DNA of 64,000 nt from assembly GCF_004343505.1 (NCBI RefSeq), contig NZ_SLXU01000005.1:1-64000 (forward strand), in the 5' to 3' direction. A program made the translations under genes and the position numbers. This document shows, piece by piece, positions 9,275-64,000 of the stretch. The stretch's first letter is position 1, and each line of letters begins with the position of its first letter. Below the pieces are notes generated by a model. The model did no database searches. It was not told the origin of the DNA and worked only from the letters and a program-made list of their open reading frames with translations. Source of the stretch: Rhodovulum bhavnagarense (GTDB taxonomy: Bacteria; Pseudomonadota; Alphaproteobacteria; Rhodobacterales; Rhodobacteraceae).

Positions 9275-10606
9275 TCACAGGTAATCGGATCGCGAGAGCC
9301 CGTATTTCGCCATCTTTTCGTTCAGCGTGCGTCGCGGCAGGCACAGCTCTTCCATGACCGCCGCAATTGACCCCTTGTGGCGCCGCATCGTGTTGTCGAT
9401 CAGCATCCGCTCGAACGCCTCGACATATTCCTTGAGGGGTTTTCCCTCGGTGGTCATCACCGGGCGCGTGGCCTCGTTATCGGCCATCAAAAGGCTGGCG
9501 ATGGTGCCCGAGCCGCGGCGGTTTTGCAGCACCGCACGTTCGGCGACATTGATAAGCTGGCGCACATTGCCAGGCCAGGGCGCCTGCATCAGCTGCGCGG
9601 CCTCTTGCGCGGTTACATCGGGCGCGTCGCAACCGTATTCCTCGGCGAACTGATCCGATAATCGCGTGAACAGCGCCAGTATATCCTCACCCCGGACCCG
9701 CAGCGGTGGCAAGGTAATGCGCATCGCCGCCAGGCGATAGAACAGGTCGGGACGCAGCGCATCCTCGACCGTGCGATCCTGTTCTTGCAGATTCGAAACC
9801 GCGATGATGCGGGTCTCGGCCGGACTTCCCTGTTCATTGAGAAAGGTCAGCAGGCGGGCCTGAAGCGAGGCCGGCAATGCCTCGATGTCTTCAAGGCAGA
9901 GCGTGCCACCGCGGGCTTCCTCGACCGCGGGCAGCGCGCCGCCCTCCTGCGGCGGGCCGAAAAGACGCGCGGCGAGTGCCTCTGGGGCGTGCGCGGCACA
10001 GGCGATCTGAACGAACTTGCGCGCCGCACGGGGGCCGACCGCATGCAGCGCATGCGCCACGAGTGTCTTGCCCGTACCGGTTTCCCCGTCAATCAGCACA
10101 TGGCCATCGGCCTGTCCGAGATCGAGAATATCATCGCGCAACCTCTCCATCATCGGAGAAGACCCGATGAGTTTTTGCACCATTCCCGGACCATTGGCCA
10201 ACTCGCGGCGCAGCGCGCGATTGTCCAGCGTAAGCCGCCGGGTGCGCGTCGCGCGCTTTGCCAAGTCTGTCATCCGGTCGGGATTGAACGGTTTTTCCAG
10301 GAAATCGAAAGCCCCGATACGCATGGCCTCCACCGCCATGGGCACGTCTCCATGGCCGGTGATCATAATCACCGGCAGGCTTGAATCCTGCCCCATCAGA
10401 CGCTTGAGAAAGGCCATTCCGTCCATACCCGGCATTTTGATGTCGGTCACCACCACGCCGGGGAAATCCGGGCCGATTTCCTTTAGCGCATCCTCGGCAC
10501 GAGCAAAGGTTGTGGTGTCAAATCCGCTCAGTGCCAGCCACTGGCTGATCGACTGGCGCATGTCCTGCTCGTCATCGACAATCGCGATCTTCATGGATTG
10601 TGCCAT
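9275..10606 (-). CDS. dctD: DctD-type response regulator with degenerate sigma-54 motif
   Basis: This 443-aa regulator is paired with the DctB kinase encoded upstream. It has a receiver domain with phospho-acceptor Asp55 (VVVTDIKMPG), an AAA+ domain with Walker A DGETGTGKT at 173-181, and a C-terminal Fis-type helix-turn-helix (CLPRRTLNEKM). The GAFTGA loop that contacts sigma-54 is missing: the segment after LFG reads PPQEGGALPAVEE. The Walker B motif reads LCLEDI instead of the usual LFLDEI. It may therefore not activate sigma-54 promoters in the standard way. The start at 10606 (MAQSMKIAIVDDE) has CGGAGA upstream; a longer in-frame extension to 10702 lacks homology. Confidence 0.85.
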   Translation of the reverse strand: MAQSMKIAIVDDEQDMRQSISQWLALSGFDTTTFARAEDALKEIGPDFPGVVVTDIKMPGMDGMAFLKRLMGQDSSLPVIMITGHGDVPMAVEAMRIGAFDFLEKPFNPDRMTDLAKRATRTRRLTLDNRALRRELANGPGMVQKLIGSSPMMERLRDDILDLGQADGHVLIDGETGTGKTLVAHALHAVGPRAARKFVQIACAAHAPEALAARLFGPPQEGGALPAVEEARGGTLCLEDIEALPASLQARLLTFLNEQGSPAETRIIAVSNLQEQDRTVEDALRPDLFYRLAAMRITLPPLRVRGEDILALFTRLSDQFAEEYGCDAPDVTAQEAAQLMQAPWPGNVRQLINVAERAVLQNRRGSGTIASLLMADNEATRPVMTTEGKPLKEYVEAFERMLIDNTMRRHKGSIAAVMEELCLPRRTLNEKMAKYGLSRSDYL

Positions 10607-10628
10607 GTTACGCTGTCTCCGCTTATTG

Positions 10629-12392
10629 TTATCCCGTGGCTTCCATGTCCTGTTCCAGTATCGGAAGCTGAACCTCGAAGACTGCGCCCCTCTCGCGCGC
10701 ATTGCGCGCAGTCAGCCTGCCGCCAAGATCGCTTACGATCCCAGAGGAAATCGCCAGGCCTAGCCCCACTCCATCGCCCGGCGCCTTGGTGGTGTAGAAC
10801 GGCTCGAACAATTGGTCGATATCCTCGATACCCTGGCCATTGTCCCGCACCGTCATGGTCGCGGTCTCGCCCGCCGAAAGGATGATGTCGATCTGCGGGT
10901 CGGCAATGTTGCGCGTGGCATCCAGCGCATTGCGCAACAGGTTGATGATGACCTGTTCCAACCGGATGCGGTCGCCCATGACCATGACCGGCTCGCGCGG
11001 CAAGGACCGCGTGATCGTGACGCGATGACGTTTTAGCTGAGCCTCCATCATCGACAACGCCCCCGAGACGCAGGCACGCATGTCCATGGGTTCGACCGCA
11101 TCGCCGCCCTTGCGCGCATAGCTTTTCAATTGTCGCGTGATCGCGCCCATCCGCTCGATCAGGTCGTCGATCCGCTGAAAGGATGACAGCGCCTCTTCGG
11201 GACGGCGGCGCTGCACCAATAGCCGCGCCCCGGCCAGGTAGGTCTTCATCGCTGCAAGTGGCTGGTTCAACTCGTGGCTGACAGCGGCCGACATCTCGCC
11301 CAAGGCCGCCAGCTTGGAGCTTTGCGCCAGGGTCTGTTCCGCAACCTCGAGATTTTTCTCGGCCCGCTCGCGTTCGGCGATCTCTCGTTGCAATCGAGCG
11401 TTGAGTTGACGCAACTCAGCGGTTTCGCGCTGAAACACGACCGAACGCAGCTGGGCCCGGCGCGACAACAGGTAAAAGCTCAACGCGAGAAGGATCGCGA
11501 AACCCATGATTTCCAGCGCCAAAACCGCGTTCACCCGGTCGCGGATCGAAACGTAAGAGGTAAACGACGTGATCCGCCAGCCCCGAAAAGGAATGCGCGC
11601 GTCGTTACGCATCACCGCTTCGCCCATCAGGTAGGCATCGGGCGGCAGCGTGCCCCAGTCGGTTGTCGCCTGGATCGCGCGGGCAATCGCCGAGGGCGCA
11701 GAGCGTGCAACCAGCGCCTCGGCAATGGTCAGACCCCGCCAGCGCGGCTCGGTGGACAGGATGATCTGACCCTCACTGTCGGTCACGAGGATAGCGTCTG
11801 AAATGCCGGCCCAGCTTTGTTCGAACTTGGCAAGGTCAACACCTACGACGATGACCCCCAGCTTTTTTCGGTCTGCATTGATCGATCGCGCATAGCTGAA
11901 CGTGAACCCCCCCGCATCGGTGCGCGAGATCAAGAATACGGTGTCATTTGACCGCTGCGCCTCGACGAACACGCCAGAACTGCGCAGGTTCGCACCGATT
12001 TTCGCCCGATCGCTGGCCGCCACCACCCGACCGGCATTATCCAGAAGTTGCAACGAAGCCGCCCCGATCTCGTCGACATAGGAAATCAGACGTTGCGAGC
12101 TTTGACTGAAATCGCCCGATCCAAGCGCGCCGATCAGCGTGGGATCGCGTGACAGCAACAAAGGCACCACGGATGCGCGCTGCAACTCGCTGACAACGTT
12201 CCCGGAATACAGGGCAAGCCTGACCTGCGCGCGGTTGCGCGTACTTTCGGTGAGCCTTTCGGTCAACCAGTTATTGGTATTCCAGACGGTCGCAACGGCA
12301 ATCGCGAGCAGCAGGACCAAGGCAAGGCGCGGGGGCCAGCCCCTGCCGGGTGGCCACGCATACCGGACAGGGGATGTACCGCGTCGAACCAT
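10629..12392 (-). CDS. dctB: DctB-type sensor histidine kinase
   Basis: This 587-aa membrane kinase senses C4-dicarboxylates in the family. It has an N-terminal membrane helix (about 22-38), a periplasmic PAS-like sensor of roughly 250 residues and a second helix near 300 (LALEIMGFAILLALSFYLL). A coiled coil (RLQREIAERERAEKNLE), the HisKA box SHELNQPLAAMKT with the phosphorylated histidine, and an ATPase domain (NLLRNALDATRN, DNGQGI, GLGLAIS) follow. It lies 22 bases upstream of dctD in the same operon. The usual transporter partners dctPQM are not in this window, so the inducer is assumed from homology only. Confidence 0.88.
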   Translation of the reverse strand: MVRRGTSPVRYAWPPGRGWPPRLALVLLLAIAVATVWNTNNWLTERLTESTRNRAQVRLALYSGNVVSELQRASVVPLLLSRDPTLIGALGSGDFSQSSQRLISYVDEIGAASLQLLDNAGRVVAASDRAKIGANLRSSGVFVEAQRSNDTVFLISRTDAGGFTFSYARSINADRKKLGVIVVGVDLAKFEQSWAGISDAILVTDSEGQIILSTEPRWRGLTIAEALVARSAPSAIARAIQATTDWGTLPPDAYLMGEAVMRNDARIPFRGWRITSFTSYVSIRDRVNAVLALEIMGFAILLALSFYLLSRRAQLRSVVFQRETAELRQLNARLQREIAERERAEKNLEVAEQTLAQSSKLAALGEMSAAVSHELNQPLAAMKTYLAGARLLVQRRRPEEALSSFQRIDDLIERMGAITRQLKSYARKGGDAVEPMDMRACVSGALSMMEAQLKRHRVTITRSLPREPVMVMGDRIRLEQVIINLLRNALDATRNIADPQIDIILSAGETATMTVRDNGQGIEDIDQLFEPFYTTKAPGDGVGLGLAISSGIVSDLGGRLTARNARERGAVFEVQLPILEQDMEATG

Positions 12393-21597: not shown

Positions 21598-21701
21598 CGC
21601 CGCCCTCCTGAAATATGGGCCTTGCGTTAGCCGATCCCCCGCCCGCTGTCCACGCCCCCGCTTGACGCCCCGCCCTTCGCGGCCTAGGCAAAGGTCCAGG
21701 C

Positions 21702-21777
21702 GGGCCTGTAGCTCAATGGTTAGAGCAGAGCGCTCATAACGCTTTGGTTGGGGGTTCGAGTCCCTCCGGGCCTACCA
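21702..21777 (+). tRNA. tRNA with CAU anticodon (Met elongator or lysidine-type Ile)
   Basis: A full cloverleaf is visible. The acceptor stem is GGGCCTG with CGGGCCT, the D stem is GCTC/GAGC, and the anticodon stem is GAGCG/CGCTT with anticodon CAT at 21735-21737. The T stem is GGGGG/CCCTC, the discriminator base is A and the CCA is encoded (21775-21777). The D arm and TTGGT after the anticodon stem resemble ileX-type tRNAs in which C34 becomes lysidine, but an elongator methionine tRNA is not excluded. It lacks the three G-C pairs expected of initiator tRNA in the anticodon stem. Confidence 0.93.
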
Positions 21778-21971
21778 TATCGAGACACGGCCCTCGGTGG
21801 GGTTAGGGTGATTACCAGCCGGGCCGGTCTGGTCGCGCCTGAACATCCGACCACAAAGCGCCGGATCGGCTAACTCCTTTAGAATGATTGGATCGACTTA
21901 ATTGCCAATCGATTTCGGCGTCCGGTTGTGGTCTGATACTCAAGGTAATTCTTTGGTTTTACGGCACGAAT

Positions 21972-22520
21972 ATGTTCGACAGAGATAAGAGCGGGGAAAT
22001 CCTGAGCACGGCAGAGGCGCGTTCAAGGACGCTCGTGTCGGATCTGCTGGTGATGACCGAGGCGGGCGATCCCGTTCTGAACGACTATTGCGAGGTGATG
22101 GCCCGGCTGCGGGGCACGACACATGCCTTCGTTGTACTGATCTATGAATCGCAGTTTTATTTCATCGGCCGTTACGGCTATATCGACGTGCGCTGCTCTA
22201 TCCCGACAGAATCTCAGCCTGACTGGCGGGGCGAGGCGCAGGTTGAGTACGTGGACCCCGCCGAAGAAATCCCGGGCGGAGAACTCTACCCGGCCGACCT
22301 CAGGGCGAACAGCTATGTGCATTTCGCCCCTCTGAAGCTGGATGGCATCCCGGTCGGCATGGTCGGTGTTGCCAACCGCGCGCCGATGACAACGGCGACC
22401 CCCGATCAGCGAATCGCATTAGATGTCATGGCGCGGTTGACCGAAACCTATCTGGGCAAGCATCAGACGCTGAAACGCCACACGCAGGAAATTTTCGGCA
22501 TGTTGCAAGGCGACACCTAG
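21972..22520 (+). CDS. Stand-alone GAF domain protein, copy 1
   Basis: This 182-aa protein consists almost entirely of one GAF-like domain. An N-terminal helix (TAEARSRTLVSDLLVMTEAG) leads into the sheet (THAFVVLIYESQFYFIG). A loop with RYGY, the segment YVHFAPLKLDGIPVGMVGVA typical of the GAF C-terminal strands, and a final helix follow. There is no output domain. GAF domains bind small ligands or cofactors; no chromophore cysteine is obvious. It is a close paralogue of the gene at 22663. The ATG at 21972 is chosen because the relationship to the paralogue begins there, although an open frame runs back to 21888. It follows a tRNA gene. Confidence 0.7.
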   Translation: MFDRDKSGEILSTAEARSRTLVSDLLVMTEAGDPVLNDYCEVMARLRGTTHAFVVLIYESQFYFIGRYGYIDVRCSIPTESQPDWRGEAQVEYVDPAEEIPGGELYPADLRANSYVHFAPLKLDGIPVGMVGVANRAPMTTATPDQRIALDVMARLTETYLGKHQTLKRHTQEIFGMLQGDT

Positions 22521-22590
22521 CCGGGCGCGCCGCCTCTGCCTGCGCAATAGGGCCAGCACACCCCCCATTTGAACCACGTTCCATACCGAG

Positions 22591-22622
22591 TTGACAGGTC
22601 TCGGTCCGCTTAAGCGGTATAT
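22591..22622 (+). promoter_or_regulatory. Promoter-like region with palindrome before GAF copy 2
   Basis: TTGACA (22591-22596) is a perfect -35 hexamer. A perfect 12-base palindrome CCGCTTAAGCGG (22606-22617) follows, running into GTATATAAAA. The 12-mer TAAGCGGTATAT (22611-22622) recurs at 23277-23288, upstream of the AAA+ gene. The spacing to the TATA-like box (about 20) is longer than ideal for sigma-70. The palindrome could be a repressor or activator site overlapping the promoter. Confidence 0.5.
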
Positions 22623-22662
22623 AAAAGTAATCATTTGTGTGGTTGGTGCGAGGTAAGGACCG

Positions 22663-23217
22663 TTGGTCGATGATAACAAAAAGATCGTGCGCGAAGTCGA
22701 CCTGACGTCCGAAAGATCGCTGGCTCTTGTTGCCGACCTGTTGATCATGACCGATACCGGCGAACCGGCGCTCAACATGGCATGTGAACTGATGGCGCGG
22801 CTTCGTGGAACGAACCGCGCATTTGTCGTTCTCGTCTATCATTCCGAGGCTTATTTCATCGGGCGCTATGGATATCCCCGTATTTCCTACGCCGTGCCCA
22901 TAGAGGTGCAACCGAATTGGCGAGGCGATGAGCAGGTCGAGTATCTTGATGTCGACAGGGAAATCGCCGGACGGCAGACATACCCTCAGGACCTTCGTGA
23001 AAGCCAATACCTTCATTTCGCCCCGCTCAAGATAGACGGCATTCCGATCGGCATGGTCGGCGTGGCCAATCGTGATCCCCTGCCACCGGCGACGCTCGAC
23101 CAACGCGTCGCGCTGGATCTTTTATGCAAGCTCGTGGCGGAACGGCTGCATCACCATCGACTGTTGAAACGCCACACTCGCGAACTGTTCGGCCTCCTTC
23201 AGGGCGATGCCCCCTGA
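22663..23217 (+). CDS. Stand-alone GAF domain protein, copy 2
   Basis: This 184-aa paralogue of the preceding gene is the same length and more than half identical by eye. Shared blocks include MARLRGT, AFVVL, YFIGRYGY, QVEY, HFAPLK, MVGVAN and a common C-terminus (LKRHT, FG.LQGD). It starts at a TTG (22663) preceded by AAGGA at about 6 bases. It has its own promoter-like region in the 142-base gap after copy 1, so the pair is probably a duplication with separable regulation. No transmembrane or output domain is present, so it must act through a partner. The neighbouring AAA+ protein is a candidate. Confidence 0.7.
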   Translation: MVDDNKKIVREVDLTSERSLALVADLLIMTDTGEPALNMACELMARLRGTNRAFVVLVYHSEAYFIGRYGYPRISYAVPIEVQPNWRGDEQVEYLDVDREIAGRQTYPQDLRESQYLHFAPLKIDGIPIGMVGVANRDPLPPATLDQRVALDLLCKLVAERLHHHRLLKRHTRELFGLLQGDAP

Positions 23218-23524
23218 CAGCATGTCCATGCCAAGATTCCGGTCGCTCAAGGCCGAATGAGACGGAAATCGTGCCATAAGCGGTATATTGGACTCTCAAA
23301 TTCGCCCTCAATACTCCATATAACCACCTGGATGCGGCAGAAAGCACCACTGAAGTCGAACCTGTTCGGGTTAGGTTAGCCGCGTCGCCTACCGAACTTT
23401 CCCCGTGGTGTTGGCGGCATCGGGATCGGTTCTTTTTTTACTTTGACACAGTGAAAGCACCCTGAACACCGGTTTCGCGAAACGGCCTGAGGTCAATGGC
23501 CTGGCTAACAAAGCGAGCGATACT
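23218..23524 (+). promoter_or_regulatory. Intergenic region before the AAA+ gene with two motifs
   Basis: No open frame here looks coding. It contains the 12-mer TAAGCGGTATAT (23277-23288) shared with the GAF copy 2 promoter region. It also has a perfect palindrome GTTTCGCGAAAC (23472-23483) 41 bases before the start codon, and a T-run followed by TTTGACA at about 23440-23450. It is AT-richer than the surrounding chromosome. Confidence 0.45.
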
Positions 23525-24361
23525 GTGTCTGAAACGTTTCACCCGGAAATATCGGCGCGGCTACTGGGCGACTCGCAGGCAATGGTCGAGTTGAAGTCAG
23601 CCCTGACCCGCCTCGCCACCACGACGGCACCGGTTCTTTTGCGGGGTGAAAGAGGCACCGGCAAACAGAGCGCGGCGCGCGCCCTGCATGCCGCATCCGG
23701 TAGAACCGGACCCTTCGTCATCGTCGATTGTTCCGGCATGAGGACCGAGTTTCTCGAACTTGAATTGTTCGGCCAGCATCACTCCAGCCAACGCGGACGT
23801 ATAGAATGCGCCGCTGGTGGCACCCTGTTTCTGGACGAAATCGGAGCAATGCCTGAAAAGTTGCAAGCGCGCTTATCGCACGTCCTAGAAAAGGGAACCT
23901 TCCGTCGCGCCGGCAGCCACCAGGAAATCGCGGTCGATTTCCGCTTCGTCGCCGCGACGCATGAACTTTACGAAACCGCCCTGGCCCACGGTCGTCTCGG
24001 GGACGACCTTCTGTTTCGTATGAACCTGCATGAGATCCACATGCCGCGGCTCGTCGAGCGGGCGCATGACATTCGGATGCTCGTACAGTCGATGCTGGAA
24101 AACCACGCCCAAAGGCAGTTTGATCAGCCTCGTGGGTCCTTTGACGAGACCGCCCTGGAACTTCTTGCCCGGCAGGAATGGCCGGGCAACCTCGACGACC
24201 TCTACAAGGTGGTGTCACGCGCGCTGACGCTTTTTCCCGGCCGCGAGATCGGCGCCGCGCATCTGTTGCAGATCATCGGCCCCGGCAGCCTCGCGCCGGG
24301 GGCACAGCCCCGATCCTTGCCCGACGCGCATGTACCGACGCAACATTTCCTGTCGCGCTAG
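23525..24361 (+). CDS. Stand-alone AAA+ domain of the sigma-54 activator type
   Basis: This 278-aa protein is an isolated enhancer-binding-protein ATPase. Walker A GERGTGKQ is at 41-48, Walker B GGTLFLDEIG at 98-107, a sensor I-like FVAATHEL at 141-148, and an arginine region DLLFRMNLHEIHMPRL at 161-175. It lacks a receiver or sensor domain before it and a helix-turn-helix after it. The GAFTGA loop is deleted: FGQHHSSQR runs straight to GRIECAAGG. Sensor II reads GNLDDL where activators have GNVREL. It therefore probably does not remodel sigma-54 holoenzyme alone. The start is a GTG with only a weak GCGAG upstream. It could be regulated by the adjacent GAF proteins. Confidence 0.75.
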   Translation: MSETFHPEISARLLGDSQAMVELKSALTRLATTTAPVLLRGERGTGKQSAARALHAASGRTGPFVIVDCSGMRTEFLELELFGQHHSSQRGRIECAAGGTLFLDEIGAMPEKLQARLSHVLEKGTFRRAGSHQEIAVDFRFVAATHELYETALAHGRLGDDLLFRMNLHEIHMPRLVERAHDIRMLVQSMLENHAQRQFDQPRGSFDETALELLARQEWPGNLDDLYKVVSRALTLFPGREIGAAHLLQIIGPGSLAPGAQPRSLPDAHVPTQHFLSR

Positions 24362-24494
24362 CAACGAGACCGGCAGGTCCGCCAGCGCCGGCTTGCCCCC
24401 ACGGTTCGTATCGGCCGCATGGGCAGTGTGAACCCCGCCTTGAAAACATTGCAAGAGCTACGTTTTCAAGGTGTTCAGACCCTTTCTTTGGCTG
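24362..24494. other. Gap after the AAA+ gene with an inverted repeat
   Basis: Perfect 10-base arms CCTTGAAAAC (24438-24447) and GTTTTCAAGG (24462-24471) enclose 14 bases. The repeat is 77 bases after the AAA+ stop. It could end that transcript or be an operator for the promoter that follows. Nothing coding is seen. Confidence 0.4.
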
Positions 24495-24523
24495 TTGACG
24501 GCTGTGACCAAAGGCCGTAGCCT
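24495..24523 (+). promoter_or_regulatory. Promoter of the candidate small RNA
   Basis: TTGACG (24495-24500) and TAGCCT (24518-24523) are separated by 17 bases, giving a start near 24530. The match to the -35 box is strong and to the -10 box moderate. Confidence 0.45.
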
Positions 24524-24529
24524 CTGCCG

Positions 24530-24602
24530 CGTTCATAAGGTCGGCCAGTCCGACAGGGAGAAAAAAACAACGGGAAAAGGGCTGCATTGCGGCCCTTTTT
24601 TC
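24530..24602 (+). ncRNA. Candidate small RNA or ialB leader with intrinsic terminator
   Basis: About 70 bases downstream of a promoter-like pair contain a short stem (GTCGG/CCGAC around 24540-24554) and an A-rich single-stranded stretch (24561-24570). They end in a clear intrinsic terminator: AAAAGGGC (24575-24582) pairs with GCCCTTTT (24592-24599) and is followed by T residues. This is the layout of a bacterial trans-acting small RNA. Because ialB begins 91 bases further on, the terminator could instead attenuate ialB. No known RNA family is recognised. Confidence 0.5.
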
Positions 24603-24692
24603 GTCGCCCTAAATGGCCTGAATTGCACGCTGACAGCGCTGGCACGCCATGTTAGAGCGGCAGACAGCAATAGCCAGAAAGGGATGGAACCC

Positions 24693-25304
24693 ATGCGCGA
24701 TCTTCTCAGGCTTGTGACCCTCATGGCCGTGACAGGGTTGGCCTTGCCCGTCGCGGCGCAGGAAACAGCACCCGCGCAAACCGATGAGACCCCGGCCGCC
24801 GAGGCGCCCGCCACGCCCGCACAACAGGCCACGCCAGAGGCCCAACCTCCCCAGCCCTATGTCAAGGAAACCTTTCAGGACTGGCGTCTTGTCTGTGTCG
24901 CGCTGGCGGAAAACCGCGAAAGCTGCACCATGCAGCAGCTGATGCGCGACGCAGAGGGCAACCCCGTCAGCCAGGTCTCTCTCGCGCCGTTGCCGCCTGC
25001 GGCCGCCCCGCGCGCCGCCGCTGTCGAGATCGCAACGCCGCTAGAGACACTGTTGAGCGAGGATCTGCTGATCCGTGTCGATACCAGCGAGGCAAAGCGA
25101 TATCGCTTTTCCTATTGCACCCCGCAGGCCTGCGTTGCCCGGTTTGCCCTGACTGAGGCCGAAGTCGGCGCCTACAAATCCGGCGGCAAGGCGACGGTGA
25201 CGATCGTGCCGCTTCTGGCGCCCGATCAGACGGCCTCTGTCACGATGTCGCTGGCAGGCTTTACCGCCGCCTACGAGGCCGTGACGAAAATCCTCGCGCA
25301 ATAA
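24693..25304 (+). CDS. Invasion-associated locus B (IalB) family protein
   Basis: This 203-aa exported protein has a signal peptide ending near VAAQE and an Ala/Pro/Thr-rich linker to about residue 50. The IalB domain follows, with the typical opening FQDWRLVCV and conserved cysteines (LVCVALAENRESCTMQQ, FSYCTPQACVARF) that probably form disulfides. IalB proteins are periplasmic or outer-membrane associated in many alphaproteobacteria, including non-pathogens, and their molecular role is unclear. I choose the ATG at 24693 over 24684 because AGAAAGGG then sits at a normal distance. Confidence 0.85.
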   Translation: MRDLLRLVTLMAVTGLALPVAAQETAPAQTDETPAAEAPATPAQQATPEAQPPQPYVKETFQDWRLVCVALAENRESCTMQQLMRDAEGNPVSQVSLAPLPPAAAPRAAAVEIATPLETLLSEDLLIRVDTSEAKRYRFSYCTPQACVARFALTEAEVGAYKSGGKATVTIVPLLAPDQTASVTMSLAGFTAAYEAVTKILAQ

Positions 25305-54262: not shown

Positions 54263-55066
54263 CTACAACGGGCCGGCCATATCCTCGCGGATCGCACGCA
54301 GGCGGTCCCAATGCGCTTGCAGCCGCGGCGAAAGATCGTCACGTCCCAGGGGCGCACCGGCCCCTGCACGCCCCGGCATCACCGGCGGGGACAGCGCTGG
54401 CAGGTCTATCGCGTCGGATTGCCCGTCCCGCGGACCAAGACCGGACACCAGCGGCCCGCGTCCCGGAGACGACATTGCGCCGCGCGCCACGGCGGGGGCC
54501 GGATCGGCCGCTTGCACCGCCATGCGCCGCGGGCTTGTATCGTCCATCGCGCGCCTGACACGGGCCAGGTAACGCCGTCCGCGTTCGGGATCGGCGGAAT
54601 GATAACGGGCGGCCGCCTCGTCCCAACTGCCATGACGCGCCTTCAGCCGGGACAGGAACCGCGCGGCATAGGCCGTATTATGCACCGGGTCCAACATCTC
54701 TTGCAGGGAACCGAACCGCTCGTGGTGCCATCGGTAATTGATCTGCATGCAGCCGACATCAATGTTGCGCACGCCGCGCGCGACCGCATTTCGCAGATAG
54801 TCCAGCGCCTCGTCACGGGTCTTGAAATAAAGTCCCCGGCCACCCTCGTTCAGCGTCCAGGGCCAGGCCGCGACCGCCCCCTTGCCCGAACGATAGGCCG
54901 ATTCCACCCGCGCGATGGCCGGCAACAAGGTTTCAGGCAGCCCGGCAACCCGGCCCGCCTGCGCGGCCAAAGCCTCGCAATCCGCGCCGGCTGCGGCCCT
55001 TGCCGGACCGGCATCGGCACCGGAAAGAAACAACGCCAGGACGATTGTGCCCAAGACCACCCGCAC
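54263..55066 (-). CDS. Lytic transglycosylase, SLT domain, probably flagellar
   Basis: This 267-aa protein has a signal peptide (VVLGTIVLALFLSGADAGPARA) and an SLT lysozyme-like domain from about 30 to 180. The catalytic glutamate is in AIARVESAYRSG, followed by VGCMQINYRWH, YAARFLSRLKARHGSWDEAAARYHS. The tail of about 80 residues is Pro/Arg-rich and disordered. Placed directly after flgL, it probably opens peptidoglycan for the rod. That would supply the muramidase function missing from the short FlgJ, like SltF of Rhodobacter sphaeroides. Confidence 0.85.
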   Translation of the reverse strand: MRVVLGTIVLALFLSGADAGPARAAAGADCEALAAQAGRVAGLPETLLPAIARVESAYRSGKGAVAAWPWTLNEGGRGLYFKTRDEALDYLRNAVARGVRNIDVGCMQINYRWHHERFGSLQEMLDPVHNTAYAARFLSRLKARHGSWDEAAARYHSADPERGRRYLARVRRAMDDTSPRRMAVQAADPAPAVARGAMSSPGRGPLVSGLGPRDGQSDAIDLPALSPPVMPGRAGAGAPLGRDDLSPRLQAHWDRLRAIREDMAGPL

Positions 55067-55075
55067 CGAGACAAC

Positions 55076-56353
55076 CTAGCGCAGATAATCGAACAGCGAT
55101 TGCTGAGCGATCTTGATAAAGCTCTGCTGAGAGGCCTGCTGTGTCAGAAGCCGCTGTTGCAGCTCGGTGATCGCGGCGGCGATATCAAGATCTTCCAGCC
55201 CCGAAACCGCCGTCTTCAACATCACCTGCTGCGCCTCCACCGCGCGGGATTGGATATCCGCCACCTGCCCCAACGCGCCGATCCGGGCGCGCATGTCGGC
55301 AAAATGATCCGCGATGGCCGCCATCGCATCGACCTGTGCCGATTGTCTCAGCCGTTCGGGGATCAGCGCGGTTTCAGGCCCTGCGGGCTGAGCGCTGTCA
55401 TCCAGGGCCACGGCGCGTGCCACGATCTCGTCCGTGGGCAATTCTTGCGGTCCGTTCACTTCAGACACAACGATGACACCTGCTGCCGAAAGATCGAACG
55501 ATTGCCCATCCGGCGACAACACCGCGCTTATCCCCGTATCGGCCATGCGTGCATTGATTGCATCGACCATTGCGCCGGGTGTGTCGGCGCTCAGTTCCGC
55601 GGAAATCGTCGCGCTTCCCCCCGGTCCGGCCAGCGCAATTGACCACTGTGCCGGGATGCGCCCGGGCGACAGCGACAGGCGCATCGCGCCTTCGGCCGAA
55701 AACAGGTCGGGCAGATTGGCGGTTCCGTCCTTGAGCGAAACCGCCAGATCGTCGATCAGGGAAAAAACGTCCCGCCCCGAACCGGTGCCGGGGTCCACGC
55801 CCATGAACACCTCGGCCCCGCTCAGCCCTGTCGCCATCTGGCGCGAGGCTGACACCCGCAGCGTGCCCACCATGCCATCGCCGTGGTATTCGACCCGCCC
55901 CGCGGCATCCTCGGCGAATGGGGTCGCGACCCCGCGCAAACCGGAAAACAGCGCAGAGCCGGTGCCATCCCTGGCATTGGCCAGATCGATCAATCCCTCG
56001 CGCAGTTCCAGAACCTCTAGCCGTAAGGCTTCGCGCGCGTCGGGCGACACGGTATCGTTGGCTGCGTTCAGCGCGATTTCATACAGGCGCTGGCTGATCG
56101 TATTGGCCCCCGACAGCACTGTATCGGCATGGTCCAGACGGTTTGAGACCTGTTCGAGATTGCCCTCATAGCGGTCAAGTTCGTCTTGGCGTTCACGCGC
56201 AACCGACAGGCGGGCGGCGCGCATCGGATCGGCCGAGGCGCGCGGATCGTTCACCCCTGCGGAAATCCGGTCCTGCAAATCCGAAATGCCCGACTGCTGG
56301 CGTGAAAAGGACGCGATATTCAATTCTGAGAACAACGCATTACCGATGGTCAT
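55076..56353 (-). CDS. flgL: Flagellar hook-filament junction protein FlgL
   Basis: This 425-aa member of the flagellin superfamily has an N-terminal helix bundle (SDLQDRISAGVNDPRASADPMRAA, RLDHADTVLSGANTISQRLYEIALNAANDT) and a matching C-terminal helix (SRAVEAQQVMLKTAVSGLEDLDIAAAITELQ). A variable middle part lies between them. It joins hook to filament above FlgK. The ATG at 56353 follows the flgK stop by 10 bases; the frame continues upstream into flgK. No secretion signal peptide is present, as expected for type III export. Confidence 0.87.
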   Translation of the reverse strand: MTIGNALFSELNIASFSRQQSGISDLQDRISAGVNDPRASADPMRAARLSVARERQDELDRYEGNLEQVSNRLDHADTVLSGANTISQRLYEIALNAANDTVSPDAREALRLEVLELREGLIDLANARDGTGSALFSGLRGVATPFAEDAAGRVEYHGDGMVGTLRVSASRQMATGLSGAEVFMGVDPGTGSGRDVFSLIDDLAVSLKDGTANLPDLFSAEGAMRLSLSPGRIPAQWSIALAGPGGSATISAELSADTPGAMVDAINARMADTGISAVLSPDGQSFDLSAAGVIVVSEVNGPQELPTDEIVARAVALDDSAQPAGPETALIPERLRQSAQVDAMAAIADHFADMRARIGALGQVADIQSRAVEAQQVMLKTAVSGLEDLDIAAAITELQQRLLTQQASQQSFIKIAQQSLFDYLR

Positions 56354-56363
56354 GTCAGCCTCA

Positions 56364-59300
56364 TCAGATCGATTGCAGCAGGGTGTCGAACAACTCACCC
56401 GCGATTTTGAGAACTTGCGCATTCGCCTGGTAAGCCTGTTGATAGCTCATCAGCCGCGCCGCCTCGGTGTCCAGATCGACGGCCGAAGCCTCGGCCATGG
56501 CCCGTTCGGCGCGTTCTTTCACGGCCGTCAGGCTGGTGGCGCGCGTTTGCTCGGCCGCAACCTTTGCGCCGATCCCGGTCAGGATCTCGGTATAAAGCGC
56601 GCCGAACCCGCCCTGGCCACTTTCGGGGGAAGAGGTGGCAAGATCGCCCAGGGCACCAAAGGTCCGTCCATCGCCGGGCCCGGCCGCACCGGAATTCAGG
56701 ACAAAGCTGTCGCCAGTGGCGGGATTGCCCGAGATCACGAAATCGAAACCGCCAAACGCGATCCGTCCATCAGCATCGAGAAAACGCTCGCCAATCTGGA
56801 TGCCGGCTTGCGAATCGAACAGCCCCACGCGCCCGGCTGCGCCGTCCAGAACCCGTAATTCCAGCGCGTTAGGGGGATAGGCAGTGGCCGGCGCGATCGC
56901 CCCGGCCAGCCGCAAAGCCCCCTCCCCCGTCATCACGACCAACAGGTCCTCGGGCGGCAGATTTTCCAGCGTTACGCGCTGGCTGGCGAGGCTGGTCGCG
57001 CTCACGCTGACCTCGGGAAGGGTGCCGTTGGCCGTGCGGATCACCAGCGTCGCCCCCTCGACCGCGATGGTCATGTCTGCCGGCACGCCGGGCTCCAGCG
57101 CGGAGGCCAGCGCGCGCGCCACATCCTCTGCCGAGTTCAGATCATCGACAAGGCTGTCCACCGTTGCCGTCAGGTTCAGCCCGCCGGGATCGATGGTCAC
57201 GCCATAGCGGGCGGCACCGGCCGAGCTTGCCCCGTCGCCTGAATCGATACCGGGCTCGTAGGCAAAGTCGAACCGCAAGAGACTGCCGGCCGCATCAAGG
57301 CTTCGCGAAACCAGTGAACCGGCAAAAGGATCGATCGCGATATCGCTGGCAACACCGTCAAGACTGGCCTCGAAATCGCCCGCCGACCGAAGCGTGACCG
57401 TACCCATGATGCGTGCGCTGTCATAGTCGGCACCCAGGGTTATGGCCTCGGCGTCAAGCGCCTGCCCCGCCGCATCCTGCCGCGTCACATCCAGCGGCCC
57501 TCCGGTCAGCCCGCTTATGCCGATGCTTTCGCCGCCCTCATGAACCAGAACCATGCCCAGGCCATCCGCTGTCGCCTCGGCACGGATGCCGGTCTGTCCC
57601 GATAGCGCGTTCACCTTGTCGGCCAGGCCGAAAAGCTGCCCCGCGGTCACGGCTGCTGAAACTGCCAGCGGCGCAAGGTTGTCACCGGTCAACTGAAAAC
57701 CCACCGTGCCATCCGCGGATGCGCTCACATAGGCGCGTGTTTCAGCCTCAGTGGCGATGCCGAAAGCTTCGGAAATGCCAGACGCGGCACTGGCCGCGCT
57801 GCTGCCTCCCGGCAAGGACAACGTACCGAGTGACTGACCGTCACGGAAAACCTCGATTTCCTGCGCTGCGGCGGCGATCGGCGCAGGCGAACCCGACCAG
57901 GCCAAGGTCGCGCCACCGATATCGAGACGGCCTGAATAGAGCCCCTGAACCGACGCCTCGGCAATGGTCATGCCGCGATAACTGGCGCTGGCCAGCGCCG
58001 CGTCGGCATAGCGCGCATCGGGGAAAAACCCGTTCGACTCTGTCAAAAGAGCCGCGGCCGAGGCCGCATCAAGCGGTGGGCCGGCAAGCTGCTGGCCATC
58101 GCGGGTAAACACCATCAACCCGCTGGCCGGGGCGATGCTGCTTTCGGGCGTACCGGGCGTGTCGTCCAGCGCCGCAGCACTCAGCATACCCGTGGCCGCC
58201 GTCAGGATCAGCGCACCGTTCTCGGCACCGGCTTGAAGGCCGAGTTCGGCCAGGCCATGCCCCGCCGCCGTAAAGGTCGCCGCATTGAGCCGCGCGGCAA
58301 GATCGGCCGCATCCGCGAGTTCCGGGCTTGCCCCCGACAGATCGATTGTACGTGCCACGCCATCAAGCGTGAAAGTCAGGCTGCCCGCCCCGGACACCCC
58401 ACCAGGCGGCGAGATCCGAATGGCCGACTGGGTGGCGAGCGTCAAAAGAGTAGCACTCTGTGCGTTCGCAGGCAAAAGCGCCACCGAGCCGTCCGACAGG
58501 AACTCGACCGCCGACAGGGTCTCGGCGGTGGTGCCGAACAGCCCGTCCAGTTCGACAAGCCCCGCATCGGTCGTCACGGAGGGTTGCGCGGTGATCGTGG
58601 CGCCCCCGGCATTGGTCGCGGCCGGCGCCACCGAATAGGCACCGCCCGCGGCCAGGTCATCGTTATCCTCGACCAGCCAGCGCATGTTGACTGCCGAGCC
58701 GTGAGTCGGGGTCAAAAACAGCCGGTCGCCTTCGCTGGCGGTTCCTGTGAATTGAACCCCTAGACCGGGAAGGTCGATCCGATCCGTTCCGCTTGCCAGA
58801 AGGGTGCCTTCGGCGTCACGGGCCTGCCATTGCCCCGAGGCATAGACAAAGCTCAACTCGCCCGCGGGGGCCAGCGCGGCATCGGCGCCCTCGACCGTCG
58901 CAAAGGCAGAGCCTGCATTATTGACGGCCGCGCGCACCGACCAGCCATCAAGCGAAAAGAGCGGCCCGCCCGGTTCGCCCGAGGTGGTCCGCCCCCCGGC
59001 ATGCACCGCGTTCATATCGGCGGCAAGGTTGCGTGCCCATGCGTCGATCTCGGACAAAACGCCGTCGATCGCCCCGATCGCGGTGGCAAGCCCCCCTGAA
59101 AGCCCGGTTTCGGGCCATCGCGTATAGGAAGGGGCGCCCGGTGTGACCGCGCGCACGCTCAGCCTGCCGGCATCATCGACCGTCACCGCCGAGGGCGTGC
59201 CCCGATCGAGCAAAAGCGGCCCGCCCGGGCTGCTGCCCAGCGTGATGCGCACGAGATTATCCGCTTCGGGCAGCACGGTTATGCCAAAGGTCCGGGCAAG

Positions 59301-59924
59301 TTCGTTGACCAGAAGGTCGCGCTGATCCAGAAGCGGGTTCAGCGCCGGGCCGCTGCCGGCCTCCTGGATCCTGACCTGCACCTCGGCGAGACCTTGCAGC
59401 AGGTCGTTGGCGATGCCGACGGCCTGCACTGCCTGGTCGGCCAGCCCTTCGGACATCGCGACGATGTCGCGCGCGATATCGGCGATCGCCCCCGCCATGC
59501 CCTCGCCCGCTGTGCGGATCGCGGCACGCAGGGCGGATGCATCGGGCGCTGCCGCGGCATCGCTGAAACTGTCCATGAAATGATCCAGCATTTCGGTCAG
59601 CCCGCCCATGCCGTCGGTCAATCGGCCCTCCAGCCCCGAAAGCGCGCCCAGCATCGTTTCCGATGCCGCAACGTCTGAATCCGCTGATCGGACCTGTGCC
59701 GCCGCCAGTGCATCCAGCGCGCGACGGATGTCGACGCTTTGCACGCCGGTACCGGACTGGGCAACGCTGGTCAGCGACCCGCGTGCCGCGCCTGCCTCCT
59801 GCGGCAGGGCCTGCCGCCGCACATAGCCGTCGGTCTCGACATTGGCGATGTTCTCACCGGTCACGCCCAGCGCGGCCCGATAGCTTTGCAGGCCGTTCAG
59901 CGCGATATTGGCGATCGTAGTCAT
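56364..59924 (-). CDS. flgK: Flagellar hook-associated protein FlgK, unusually large
   Basis: This 1186-aa protein has the FlgK/FlgE-type N-terminus (IANIALNGLQSYRAALGVTGENIANVETDGYVRR) and the C-terminal rod helix ending AARLMSYQQAYQANAQVLKIAGELFDTLL. It is roughly twice the length of the E. coli protein. The extra length is in a Gly/Ala/Thr/Ser-rich central region of beta-type sequence (roughly 300-1060) that probably forms surface-exposed domains. Large FlgK proteins are also known, as I recall, from the R. sphaeroides fla1 system. It overlaps flgJ by four bases. Confidence 0.93.
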   Translation of the reverse strand: MTTIANIALNGLQSYRAALGVTGENIANVETDGYVRRQALPQEAGAARGSLTSVAQSGTGVQSVDIRRALDALAAAQVRSADSDVAASETMLGALSGLEGRLTDGMGGLTEMLDHFMDSFSDAAAAPDASALRAAIRTAGEGMAGAIADIARDIVAMSEGLADQAVQAVGIANDLLQGLAEVQVRIQEAGSGPALNPLLDQRDLLVNELARTFGITVLPEADNLVRITLGSSPGGPLLLDRGTPSAVTVDDAGRLSVRAVTPGAPSYTRWPETGLSGGLATAIGAIDGVLSEIDAWARNLAADMNAVHAGGRTTSGEPGGPLFSLDGWSVRAAVNNAGSAFATVEGADAALAPAGELSFVYASGQWQARDAEGTLLASGTDRIDLPGLGVQFTGTASEGDRLFLTPTHGSAVNMRWLVEDNDDLAAGGAYSVAPAATNAGGATITAQPSVTTDAGLVELDGLFGTTAETLSAVEFLSDGSVALLPANAQSATLLTLATQSAIRISPPGGVSGAGSLTFTLDGVARTIDLSGASPELADAADLAARLNAATFTAAGHGLAELGLQAGAENGALILTAATGMLSAAALDDTPGTPESSIAPASGLMVFTRDGQQLAGPPLDAASAAALLTESNGFFPDARYADAALASASYRGMTIAEASVQGLYSGRLDIGGATLAWSGSPAPIAAAAQEIEVFRDGQSLGTLSLPGGSSAASAASGISEAFGIATEAETRAYVSASADGTVGFQLTGDNLAPLAVSAAVTAGQLFGLADKVNALSGQTGIRAEATADGLGMVLVHEGGESIGISGLTGGPLDVTRQDAAGQALDAEAITLGADYDSARIMGTVTLRSAGDFEASLDGVASDIAIDPFAGSLVSRSLDAAGSLLRFDFAYEPGIDSGDGASSAGAARYGVTIDPGGLNLTATVDSLVDDLNSAEDVARALASALEPGVPADMTIAVEGATLVIRTANGTLPEVSVSATSLASQRVTLENLPPEDLLVVMTGEGALRLAGAIAPATAYPPNALELRVLDGAAGRVGLFDSQAGIQIGERFLDADGRIAFGGFDFVISGNPATGDSFVLNSGAAGPGDGRTFGALGDLATSSPESGQGGFGALYTEILTGIGAKVAAEQTRATSLTAVKERAERAMAEASAVDLDTEAARLMSYQQAYQANAQVLKIAGELFDTLLQSI

Positions 59925-60247
59925 GGCTTGTCCTCGCCGAGTCCGGCGGCGGGGGCAAACTGGCGAAAGACCGCGTCGGCAATGCCCAGCCTGGCCGAGC
60001 CCGCCATGCCGCGCGCCAGCGCGCTGTCCAGCATCGCCCGCGTGTTCTCGACCGCCGCCCCGCCCATGAGATCCTCGCCCAAAGACCCGGCTCGCCCGGC
60101 CTTGAGAATCTGTTGAAGGAACATCTCCTCGAAGCCGTCGGCGGCCTTGCGCAGGCGCTCCGACTCGCGCGCGTGGTCCTGCGCGGCGTTGCCCGAGGGG
60201 CCAAAGGCTCTGATCCCGGCAAGGTCCATGGCGTGCCCGGAACTCAT
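59921..60247 (-). CDS. flgJ: Short FlgJ, rod-binding domain only
   Basis: This 108-aa protein corresponds to the N-terminal rod-cap domain of FlgJ ([24 protein letters not shown] is the family core). The C-terminal peptidoglycan hydrolase half of enterobacterial FlgJ is absent. It would cap the growing rod in the periplasm. The hydrolase role is probably filled by the transglycosylase at the end of the operon. Four-base overlaps with flgI and flgK show tight coupling. Confidence 0.88.
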
Positions 60248-61368
60248 ATCACGATCAATTCGGCGCGAAGCGCCCCGGCGCGATGCAGCGCCTCGAGGAT
60301 GGCCACGAGATCGGCAGGGCTGGCACCCACCGCGTTGATCGCATCGACAAGCGAGGCAAGCGAAATGCCCGGATCGAACACGAAGGCACGCGCGGGATCC
60401 TGCTGTACGTCGATCCGGGTGTCGGGGGTGACGACCGGATCGCCCGGCGCAACCACGGTGCCACCCGGCCCGTTGACGACGGTGGCGCCCTGATCGACGT
60501 TGAAATCCTCGTTGACACGCACGGTAAGCGAACCATGGGTGACGGCGGCGGGGGTAACCTTGACATTGCCCCCGATGACGATGGTGCCGCTGCGGGCATT
60601 GACGATGACCTGCGCTGGCGGCTCGGCCGGGGCGACCTCGATATTTTCAAGCAGCCCCATGAAGGCAACGCGCTGTGCCGGGTCCGAGGGCACCCTGACC
60701 CTGACCGACGTGCCGTCTATCGCGACCGCAACATCGCCCCCGAAAGTGGCGTTGACGCCATCTGCCACCGCCGCAGCGGTAGAGAAATCATTACGGCGCA
60801 GGTTCAACACAAGGTATTCGGCATCGAGAAAGCTGGAGGAAACCGCGCGCTCGACCGTGCCGCCGCCCGGAACACGGCCCACGGTGGGCACGTTCACCGT
60901 AAGCGACGAGCCGTCTCCGCCCCGGACCCCGAAACCGCCGACCACCAGGTTACCCTGGGCGATCGCGTAAACCTCGCCATCGGCCCCCATCAGCGGCGTC
61001 ATCAACAGCGTCCCGCCCTGGAGCGACTTGGCCTTTCCCACGGTCGAGACGGTGATATCCATCTGCTGGCCCGGCTTGATGAACGGGGACAGTTCGGCGG
61101 TTACCATCACTGCGGCGGCGTTGCGTGCATCAAGCTCGCCCGGTTCGGTTTCAAGTCCCAGCCGCGAGATGATCGAGCGCATGGATTGCCGCGTGAGGCT
61201 CGAATTGCCGTCGCCGGTGCCTGACAGGCCCACGACCAGCCCATACCCGACCAGCGGGTTGGAGCGCACGCCGGCCACTTCGGCCAGGTCCTTGATCCGG
61301 TCGGCCCGTGCCACGCCCGCGCCCCCCAACAACAGGACAAGAAACGCGATTGCAATCTTGCGCGCCAT
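60244..61368 (-). CDS. flgI: Flagellar P-ring protein FlgI
   Basis: This 374-aa protein has a cleavable signal peptide ([17 protein letters not shown]) and assembles the periplasmic P ring around the rod. Motifs: [45 protein letters not shown], and the C-terminal [22 protein letters not shown]. The ATG at 61368 follows AAAGGG. The frame continues upstream but that part is a shadow of flgH. Confidence 0.96.
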
Positions 61369-61382
61369 CGTCAGACCCTTTT

Positions 61383-62030
61383 TCAGAACGGAGAAACCGT
61401 GTTCATGATCTCGCGCAGCCAGCCCTGTTGACCCGCATCCGCGATCTGGCCCGCGCCGATATACTTGATCTCGGCATTGGCGATCCGGTCCGAGGGGATG
61501 ACATTGTCGGCGCCGATATCGGCCTCGCGCACGAGACCCGACAACCGGATATATTCGTCGCCGTTGTTCAGGGTCAGTTTCTTCTGACCCATGATCGCGA
61601 GTATGCCGCCGGGATATTTCCGCACCACGTTTACCGATACCCGCCCCCTGAGCGAGTTCGACTGCGAGGCAGAACCGCTTCCGGCGAAGTTCTGGTCGGT
61701 GCCTGATTGCAGGCTGGCCGCATCGTCGAAGGGACCGGGCAGGTCTATGCTGAAACTGTCGGTCTTGGCCGTGCTTGCATCCTGTGACTTCCGCGCGGCG
61801 AAATCCTCGGTCAGTTCCACCGTCAGAACGTCGCCCACCTCTGCCGCGCGGCGGTCGGTGGCGAAAAGTCCGCCCTTTCCGCCGCGAAAGATCGCCCCGG
61901 TCGACAGGCCCTCGGGCGTGGCCGCGGGAGCTGCGGGAAAGACCGGCGCATAGGTATCCGAAGCACGGTCCTGGACCTGTTGCGAACAGGCGCAAAGCAG
62001 CACCGAGGACAGAAGGAAGGCATATCGCAT
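61383..62030 (-). CDS. flgH: Flagellar L-ring lipoprotein FlgH
   Basis: This 215-aa lipoprotein has the lipobox LLCAC near residue 15 and forms the outer-membrane L ring. The core [19 protein letters not shown] and [30 protein letters not shown] are diagnostic. It follows flgG by 19 bases with no flgA between them, although many roseobacter flagellar operons place flgA here. It has only a weak ribosome site. Confidence 0.95.
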
Positions 62031-62049
62031 TGAAACTGGCCTTTAACGC

Positions 62050-62838
62050 CTAGAGGTTGTTGGACAGGAAGCGCATCATCTCGTCCGAGGCCGAGATCGA
62101 CTTGGAGTTCACCTCATAGGCGCGCTGTGCCTCGATCATGTCGACGAGTTCCTGCACCACGTTGACGTTCGATGATTCCAACATGCCTTGCGTCAGCTTG
62201 CCCGCCGCATCGGCCATCGGCGCGCTGATCGCGGGCGCGCCGCTTGCAACCGTTTCCACCGCCAGTGTCTCGCCCACCGGTTGCAGACCGCGGGGATTGG
62301 CAAAGGTCGCCAGCGTCAACTGGCCGACCTCCTGGGCATCGACCTCGCCGGGCAGCATCACGCTGACGATGCCGTCGCCGGAAATGGTGATCGACTGCGC
62401 ATCGGCCGGGATCTGTATCTCGGGCTGAACGACATAGCCCGAGGCGGTGGTCAGCGTGCCCTCGGCATTCATCGACAGCGCCCCGTTGCGGGTATAGCCG
62501 ATGCGCCCATCCGGCATCAGGACCTGGAAAAAGCCCTTTCCATCGACAGCGAGATCCAGCGCGTTGCCGGTATTGCTGAGTCCGCCCTGGGTATAGAGCT
62601 TGTCAGTCGACACCATCCGCACGCCCGTACCGATAGCCGAAGGCGTGGTCAGACGCGTCGCCTCGGAGGTCTGCGCGCCCGCCGGACGATGAACCTGGTA
62701 CAGCAAGGATTCAAAATTCGCCCGGTCACGCTTGAACCCCGTGGTGTTCACGTTTGCCAGGTTGTTCGAAATGACCTGGATGCGGGATTGCTGTGCGTTC
62801 AACCCGGTCTTTGCGACATGCATCGCGTTTGCAGACAT
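62050..62838 (-). CDS. flgG: Flagellar distal rod protein FlgG
   Basis: This 262-aa rod protein starts AMHVAKTGLNAQQSRIQVISNNLANVNTTGFKRDRANFESLLYQ, the diagnostic FlgG opening. It ends with the common rod/hook C-terminus (MLESSNVNVVQELVDMIEAQRAYEVNSKSI). It forms the distal rod inside the L and P rings. GGAGGG precedes the ATG. Confidence 0.96.
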   Translation of the reverse strand: MSANAMHVAKTGLNAQQSRIQVISNNLANVNTTGFKRDRANFESLLYQVHRPAGAQTSEATRLTTPSAIGTGVRMVSTDKLYTQGGLSNTGNALDLAVDGKGFFQVLMPDGRIGYTRNGALSMNAEGTLTTASGYVVQPEIQIPADAQSITISGDGIVSVMLPGEVDAQEVGQLTLATFANPRGLQPVGETLAVETVASGAPAISAPMADAAGKLTQGMLESSNVNVVQELVDMIEAQRAYEVNSKSISASDEMMRFLSNNL

Positions 62839-62920
62839 CGGTCGACCCTCCTGATCGTTAGCTTGCAGGTATCACTGCAACTGCCGTGCCATGCCGACGC
62901 GGCAGCGCGATATCGCCACC

Positions 62921-63682: not shown

Positions 63683-63694
63683 GGCCTCTTACCC

Positions 63695-64000
63695 CTAGCC
63701 GCGCATGTTGATGATGGTCTGCGCAAGGCTCGACGAAGTCTCCAGCGCCTTGGCCGAAGCCTGGTAGTTGCGTTGCGAGGTGATGAGATCAACCATCTGC
63801 TGTGTCAGGTCGATATTCGAACTTTCCAGGGCCGCCGAGCGCAGGCTGCCCATACCCTTGCTGTTTGCCCCGCCAAACAGCGCGGCCCCCGAATCCGAGG
63901 TGGCCGAAAAGGCCGCACTGCCGATCGGGCGCAAGCCTTCGGGGTTGTTGAAATTGGCCATCGCCACCATGCCAAGCGCCTTGGCCTGTTGATCGCCATA
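63695..64000 (-). CDS. flgE: Flagellar hook protein FlgE, C-terminal part (cut by window edge)
   Basis: The last 101 residues are visible and the gene runs off the right end. ALGMVAMANFNNPEGLRPIGSAAF and LRSAALESSNIDLTQQMVDLITSQRNYQASAKALETS match the C-terminus shared by axial flagellar proteins. The pattern and position before flgF favour FlgE. The rest is needed to exclude another axial protein such as FlgC. Confidence 0.8.
   Translation of the reverse strand, partial: YGDQQAKALGMVAMANFNNPEGLRPIGSAAFSATSDSGAALFGGANSKGMGSLRSAALESSNIDLTQQMVDLITSQRNYQASAKALETSSSLAQTIINMRG

Follow-up and report, generated by a model that had tools for sequence, protein, structure and literature searches.

A degenerate flagellar-type enhancer-binding protein paralogue encoded beside orphan GAF-only proteins in Rhodovulum bhavnagarense

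Several described regulators can be compared with a three-gene stretch of the Rhodovulum bhavnagarense genome, in which two genes for small GAF-only proteins (GAF1 and GAF2) are followed by a gene for a stand-alone AAA+ domain of the sigma-54 activator type, as found in bacterial enhancer-binding proteins (bEBPs). The stretch lies within a window of 64,000 nucleotides, the whole piece of DNA analysed, which is the first part of contig NZ_SLXU01000005.1 (C5) in a genome of 3.15 Mb and 51 contigs (99.8% complete). FleT of the Cereibacter (Rhodobacter) sphaeroides Fla1 system is described as lacking a DNA-binding domain and as unable to activate alone, while it activates in a FleQ/FleT hetero-oligomer (PMC11999139); fleT is reported to form one operon with fliEFGHIJ (PMC7277832). 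Caulobacter NtrC has no GAFTGA motif, yet its helix-turn-helix (HTH) mutants are reported to raise FlbD-dependent sigma-54 flagellar transcripts (PMC12421884). In the CerN/CerM pair of C. sphaeroides the full-length regulator reportedly has an HTH-less homologue that interacts with it and works against it (PMC11655674), and VnfA paralogues are described as mixing, as bEBP paralogues do (PMC9542535).

Like FleT, the AAA+ protein of the window is a flagellar-type bEBP AAA+ domain without a DNA-binding domain that belongs with the flagellar sigma-54 network. FleT is reported to work through a paralogue and to take part in activation, whereas the window protein has lost GAFTGA and catalytic residues; unlike fleT, its gene lies outside the fliE/fliF operon, at 23.5 kb of C5. 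A better FleT counterpart in the host is an HTH-less bEBP encoded at C5:88.2-89.4 kb, directly before fliE and fliF, because fleT shares its reported operon with these genes (PMC7277832). Caulobacter NtrC and the window protein are both bEBPs without GAFTGA, but NtrC has a receiver domain and a native HTH, neither of which is present here, and is described as working at sigma-70 promoters. CerN/CerM differ in belonging to the LuxR family and not to AAA+. Regulators of the NifA, NorR and VnfA type carry GAF, AAA+ and HTH in one chain; in the window the GAF and sigma-54 AAA+ folds share one neighbourhood but are spread over three open reading frames (ORFs), and the AAA+ protein, unlike those regulators, has neither HTH nor GAFTGA and groups with GAF-less flagellar-type activators. 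No GAF-only/AAA+ module was found in the open-access literature among the matches listed, as far as titles and the opening lines of abstracts show. The locus represents a variation on known kinds, in which a degenerate paralogue of a flagellar-type bEBP stands next to members of an orphan GAF-only family.

Losses, retained parts and kinship of the AAA+ protein

The AAA+ protein matched the Pfam families Sigma54_activat (PF00158, E=5.9e-41) and, for the lid, PF25601 (E=6.4e-13), with no HTH family above cut-off, which bears out the original prediction of an AAA+ domain of the sigma-54 activator type lacking a regulatory or DNA-binding domain. The absence of GAFTGA and the replacement of several catalytic residues go beyond that prediction. 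In a comparison with 15 other bEBP-type domains in PspF numbering, the GAFTGA loop, which contacts sigma-54, was deleted in the window protein and present in all nine flagellar-clade relatives compared. The first arginine finger R162 is replaced by G and the sensor-II arginine R227 by D, both being kept in 15 of the 15 other domains, and the switch asparagine (PspF N64) is replaced by D, a position that is also changed in two other domains, L012 and L013. The C-terminal HTH is missing, with 54 residues past the PGN motif versus 111-137 in the nine flagellar-clade relatives, and no HTH remnant was found downstream of the gene in a search whose positive control worked. The Walker A lysine, the Walker B DE and the second arginine finger R168 are retained. 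PspF hydrolysis is described as needing the fingers, Walker B and N64 correctly positioned (PMC12054792), and most GAFTGA mutants are reported to be unable to activate (PMC7175178). Because these PspF-type residues and GAFTGA are lost, the window protein appears very unlikely to activate sigma-54 and unlikely to turn over ATP normally; it may plausibly bind ATP.

The window protein's closest match within the host genome is a 363-aa AAA+-HTH protein encoded on contig C9 (46% identity; HTH_8 by Pfam). At E<=1e-50 the window protein found matches in 9 of 394 genomes of the family, the host included; here and below, searches of large genome sets scored only part of the first-look candidates (8, 11 or 6 per genome), so that matches may be missed. 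The eight foreign relatives are 40-46% identical to the window protein and all carry GAFTGA. Genes around loci were called by a crude ranking of ORFs by codon-position GC, and names without a Pfam match were given by eye. Five of the eight (L066, L067, L068, L071 and L073, the last with an SLT match just under the cut-off) are encoded between an SLT transglycosylase gene and fliD, and flagellin-type C-termini were confirmed further out at two of these five loci. Near L072 are a FliS gene and an HTH-less bEBP, which is complete and ends 49 residues past PGN; the bEBP neighbouring L069 is of this second type as well, with a missing HTH that is only presumed, as the protein runs off the end of the locus. 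At L070 a CheW-domain gene lies nearby, together with a weak match to EAL. The two types make up a flagellar activator pair, one HTH-bearing and one HTH-less, that is FleQ/FleT-like by description.

The phylogenetic tree joins the window protein to the C9 protein (90/85), both within the HTH-type clade (98/97), and gives it a very long branch (2.01 versus 0.14). The tree rows of L069 and L072 are the neighbouring second-type bEBPs, so that of the eight foreign relatives only six are represented by the intended type, whereas the residue comparison used the intended ORFs of all eight. These second-type bEBPs group with the host protein encoded directly before fliE and fliF (100/99). Relative-rate comparisons with six outgroups gave 55-69 unique changes for the window protein versus 9-16 (chi-square 21-46). 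The AAA+ gene is a fast-evolving and probably old duplicate of the host's own flagellar-type sigma-54 activator. No match to the window protein was found in 15 congeners at E<=1e-55. The C9-type activator, searched at E<=1e-75, was absent from the same 15 congeners and from 21 other family genomes in the set, and four genomes of the class were positive. A species-genome collection was also scanned with AAA+ peptide patterns, an approach that reaches close relatives only and may not have included the host genome; 2 of 61 matches were relatives, from an Acidobacteria metagenome-assembled genome (41%) and from Clostridium intestinale (31%). Of the genomes searched, only the host contains the AAA+ gene, and the GAF family is likewise limited to it.

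Roles considered for the AAA+ copy

The explanation given most weight, with about an even chance of being right, is that the AAA+ protein is a duplicate, crippled but still ATP-binding, that serves as an antagonist subunit of intact activators, its GAF neighbours being perhaps incidental. If functional, the copy would bind ATP via its retained site and join the rings of the intact C9 activator and/or of the HTH-less activator next to fliE-fliF, where a subunit without loop and finger would stall or dilute the ring and lower or retune its output. Ring mixing and antagonism are suggested by analogy; an alternative outcome, also by analogy, would be retuning or activation, as with the Caulobacter NtrC HTH mutants. 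Long maintenance of the gene is favoured by its open frame of 278 codons and its coding pattern relative to the C9 gene, with codon-position differences of 0.42/0.31/0.66, an excess at third positions, and a proportion of nonsynonymous differences (pN, 0.38) below that of synonymous ones (pS, 0.71). A copy that does act would represent a natural case of a bEBP subunit that lacks the sigma-54 loop, the DNA-binding domain and a complete active site and is retained alongside intact paralogues. It would then allow tests of what number of crippled subunits can be accommodated in an activator ring and of whether duplication yields dedicated anti-activators, tests that are timely in view of the reported result for GAFTGA-less, HTH-mutant NtrC of Caulobacter (PMC12421884).

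A tentative second explanation, given clearly less weight, is that the AAA+ gene is a functionless duplicate heading for loss and that the adjoining GAF genes are unrelated to it. Five lost features, the long branch and the strong relative-rate excess speak for such a relic, as does the lack of a close relative in the other genomes searched, but the frame has stayed open despite the large divergence, the codon pattern is of the coding type with pN below pS, and the Walker motifs and R168 have been retained. The original prediction had named a recent truncation found in a single strain among the findings that would overturn it. This is nearly what was observed, the gene being degenerate and present in one of the genomes searched; the exceptions are its divergence, which points to an old copy, and its open frame. 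That the copy blocks its intact counterpart, or is a duplicate fading away, is more likely than that it forms part of a new sensor-driven motor.

Several points weigh against a role as antagonist. The proposal is built on sequence kinship, on the losses and on confinement to one of the genomes searched, and the Caulobacter precedent is one of activation and not of antagonism. The tree program warned that the placement of long rows is unsure, and the long AAA+ branch fits slow decay as well. Selection was judged against paralogues only, with synonymous divergence (dS) saturated and no orthologue found in other genomes, and the gene may have lost its function recently. The C9 activator gene lies outside the flagellar cluster and adjoins LuxR-type and ABC-2 permease genes, so that a flagellar role is assigned to it by phylogeny only. 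Three other bEBP-type proteins of the host, L009, L012 and L013, likewise lack GAFTGA or carry an altered form, and its loss alone is therefore not rare there. A model of the AAA+ protein from its single sequence reached a mean predicted local distance difference test score (pLDDT) of 34.

The GAF-only family and its link to the AAA+ gene

The claim that the two small proteins are paralogous and adopt the GAF fold was sustained. GAF1 and GAF2 are 59% identical. By sequence the assignment is weak: Pfam gave no match to GAF1 at E<=1 and only GAF_3 at E=0.01, under the curated cut-off, for GAF2, and a search of the PDB by sequence profile gave no match. The fold supports it, although the AlphaFold2 model made from the two proteins is of modest to low confidence (pLDDT 59, pTM 0.57). 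The best PDB alignments of the model were to chains that contain GAF domains by their titles (Z 11.0-12.3 and root-mean-square deviation (rmsd) 3.0-6.4 among the matches listed); Foldseek gave E values of 2e-6 to 3e-4, many rows having an rmsd above 10.

Four full copies of the family are present in the host genome, two in the window and one each on contigs C30 and C4, with 53-59% identity to GAF2 in a joint alignment. All four share the C-terminal tail KRHTxExFGxLQGD, in which every letter is invariant. Over the full length, pairwise comparisons give a pN of 0.27-0.32 and a pS of 0.63-0.73, and pN falls to 0.05-0.22 in the 17-codon tail; the copies look like old duplicates under purifying selection with dS saturated. 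A fifth copy is a 26-residue C-terminal match on C9 (L005, C9:22453-22530); over 145 bp this remnant shares 93% identity with the C4 locus, and it stops beside an IS66-type ORF (by eye). From fold and conservation, the GAF proteins are probably small soluble sensors of small ligands with output via the tail; they probably dimerise and would act through the tail on some partner, for the finding of which it offers a handle, and their placement beside the AAA+ gene may be incidental.

Outside the host the family is, within what was searched, an orphan by sequence. A single-sequence search matched 1 of 121 genomes, the host itself, and profile searches matched 1 of 16 genomes of the genus (the host; none of 15 congeners), 6 of 394 of the family (the host and five weak matches, best E 6.5e-9) and 2 of 289 of the class (the host and one weak match), the four sets overlapping. 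In four of the five weak family matches the GAF domain is part of a longer protein that looks kinase-like (by eye), and the fifth is a small tandem protein; the weak class match likewise lies in a longer kinase-like protein. No relatives were found in plasmids, phages or viral contigs, and none among 63 pattern matches in the species-genome collection, where the peptide-pattern scan reaches close relatives only. The tandem protein belongs to a separate array in genome G414 (L034, 10526-12857) of three tandem proteins of ~170 aa, perhaps with a fourth of 159 aa; one of them faintly resembles the GAF family (E 1.7e-5), and three share the C-terminal pattern LxGLxxLIV. No AAA+ gene was recognised by eye in the 20 kb listed around this array, and Pfam gave no family for the one tandem protein tried.

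If the GAF proteins are not partners of the AAA+ protein, they could be carried as cargo by accessory stretches and take part in regulating the envelope or polysaccharides, two of them lying beside the AAA+ gene by chance. This explanation is rather unlikely, though only slightly behind that of a decaying AAA+ gene. It draws on the C30 copy, which stands two genes after a polysaccharide chain-length/tyrosine-kinase-type gene (by eye) and is closely followed by a PAS histidine kinase gene, and on the fifth copy cut beside the IS66-type ORF; against it, the C4 copy adjoins cobalamin-type and transport-type genes (by eye), and no neighbour common to the GAF loci was seen. As a whole, C30 (L029) is a contig of 14.9 kb with polysaccharide-type genes, the GAF paralogue, the PAS histidine kinase and several insertion-sequence-type ORFs (by eye).

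The original prediction had proposed a dissociated device in which ligand sensing by the GAF proteins would govern the stand-alone AAA+ protein in trans, a design comparable to NifA or NorR divided among three chains. This proposal fared poorly: it is possible but weakly supported, and we consider it improbable. The GAF and AAA+ genes are adjacent on the same strand, and a 12-nt word, TAAGCGGTATAT, occurs upstream of both GAF2 and the AAA+ gene. When the two intergenic stretches were shuffled by mononucleotide, a shared word of this length appeared in 1 of 400 shuffles, and a pattern built on both sites matched the genome exactly only at these two places; with up to two mismatches it matched four places, versus six for the reversed control. 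A link between the GAF and AAA+ genes is weakly supported by this adjacency and this word, whose core words occur neither at the locus of the C30 copy nor at that of the C4 copy. Two of the four full GAF copies, moreover, have no AAA+ gene alongside, there being no AAA+ relative on C30 and the nearest on C4 lying ~66 kb off. The gaps of 142 nt (GAF1-GAF2) and 307 nt (GAF2-AAA+) are not tight packing, and the closest AAA+ relatives are GAF-less activators, mostly in flagellar settings. As the AAA+ protein has lost the sigma-54 loop and hydrolysis residues, little output would be left for the GAF proteins to control. Least probable of all is a ligand-gated anti-activator, in which GAF tails would bind the pseudo-ATPase subunit and decide its entry into and stalling of an activator ring, with sensing, poisoning and activation split over separate chains.

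Transcription signals were sought across the three genes. An operon with a common promoter was rejected, as the scan gave no sigma-70-like site (1.1 expected by chance). Two terminator-like matches in the three-gene stretch both lie inside coding sequence, a count no higher than in shuffles. No sigma-54 promoter was found before the three genes; three 9-of-12 matches (+, 21701-24720) all lie inside ORFs and were dismissed as background, 51 matches at that threshold being present on both strands of the window.

Locus borders and flagellar setting

The three ORFs were located where the original prediction had placed them, with proteins of 182 and 184 aa and the AAA+ protein encoded on one strand; a longer frame from TTG 21888 is an alternative for GAF1. 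Their coordinates are given in the table together with those of neighbouring features.

Table. Features of the window considered in this analysis
Feature	Position	Strand	Remarks
tRNA-Met(CAT)	21702-21777	+	Left border of variable stretch; ARAGORN and Rfam RF00005
GAF1, orphan GAF-only protein	21972-22520	+	ATG start, 182 aa
TAAGCGGTATAT, copy 1 of 12-nt word	22611-22622	+	Upstream of GAF2, ends 41 nt before its start
GAF2, orphan GAF-only protein	22663-23217	+	TTG start, 184 aa
TAAGCGGTATAT, copy 2 of 12-nt word	23277-23288	+	Upstream of AAA+ gene, ends 237 nt before its start
AAA+ gene, degenerate flagellar-type bEBP	23525-24361	+	GTG start, 278 aa; without GAFTGA or HTH
IalB-family gene	24693-25304		Next after AAA+ gene; start and end as delimited in this analysis
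Left end of flagellar cluster	54263-64000	-	SLT transglycosylase, flgL-type flagellin-domain gene, flgK; rod genes by eye

The accessory character claimed for the locus was borne out, as none of the 15 congeners had a GAF match or an AAA+ match at E<=1e-55 and the stretch beside the tRNA gene is variable. The order purM then tRNA-Met is kept in 11 of the 15 congeners, and what lies to the right of the tRNA gene differs among them; the tRNA-side site looks variable across the genus. Neither a GAF nor the IalB gene is present in the purM/tRNA stretches of the 15 congeners, three of which extend only 0.6-1.7 kb past purM. No second copy of the 3' 22 nt of the tRNA gene, as expected of an att repeat, was found at up to five mismatches, in a search limited to the window and made without a search for integrases. 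In congener G003, an AAA+ match of 32% lies beside purM/tRNA; it was considered as the counterpart of the window AAA+ gene and rejected, since it groups with the receiver-type bEBP L012.

The flagellar cluster occupies ~54-110 kb of C5 (window 54263-64000 and loci L083-L085) and includes flgK, fliE, fliF, the HTH-less bEBP gene and rpoN, some genes having been named by eye. Its rpoN adjoins a flagellin-type gene, and a second rpoN is present on C4. In five relatives a bEBP gene adjoins a transglycosylase gene of the type found at the left end of this cluster, and none was called there in the host. The sole 12-of-12 sigma-54 match in the window lies at 62891 (-), upstream of a flagellar rod-type gene (by eye). 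Flagellation may set the host apart within its genus, given the absence of a C9-type activator from 15 congeners, whose flagellar genes were not themselves searched. A second unusual sigma-54-type AAA+ protein is encoded within the window: L012, a receiver-type bEBP at 9275-10702 (-), has an altered GAFTGA, a Walker B in which DE reads ED and an A in place of the switch asparagine.

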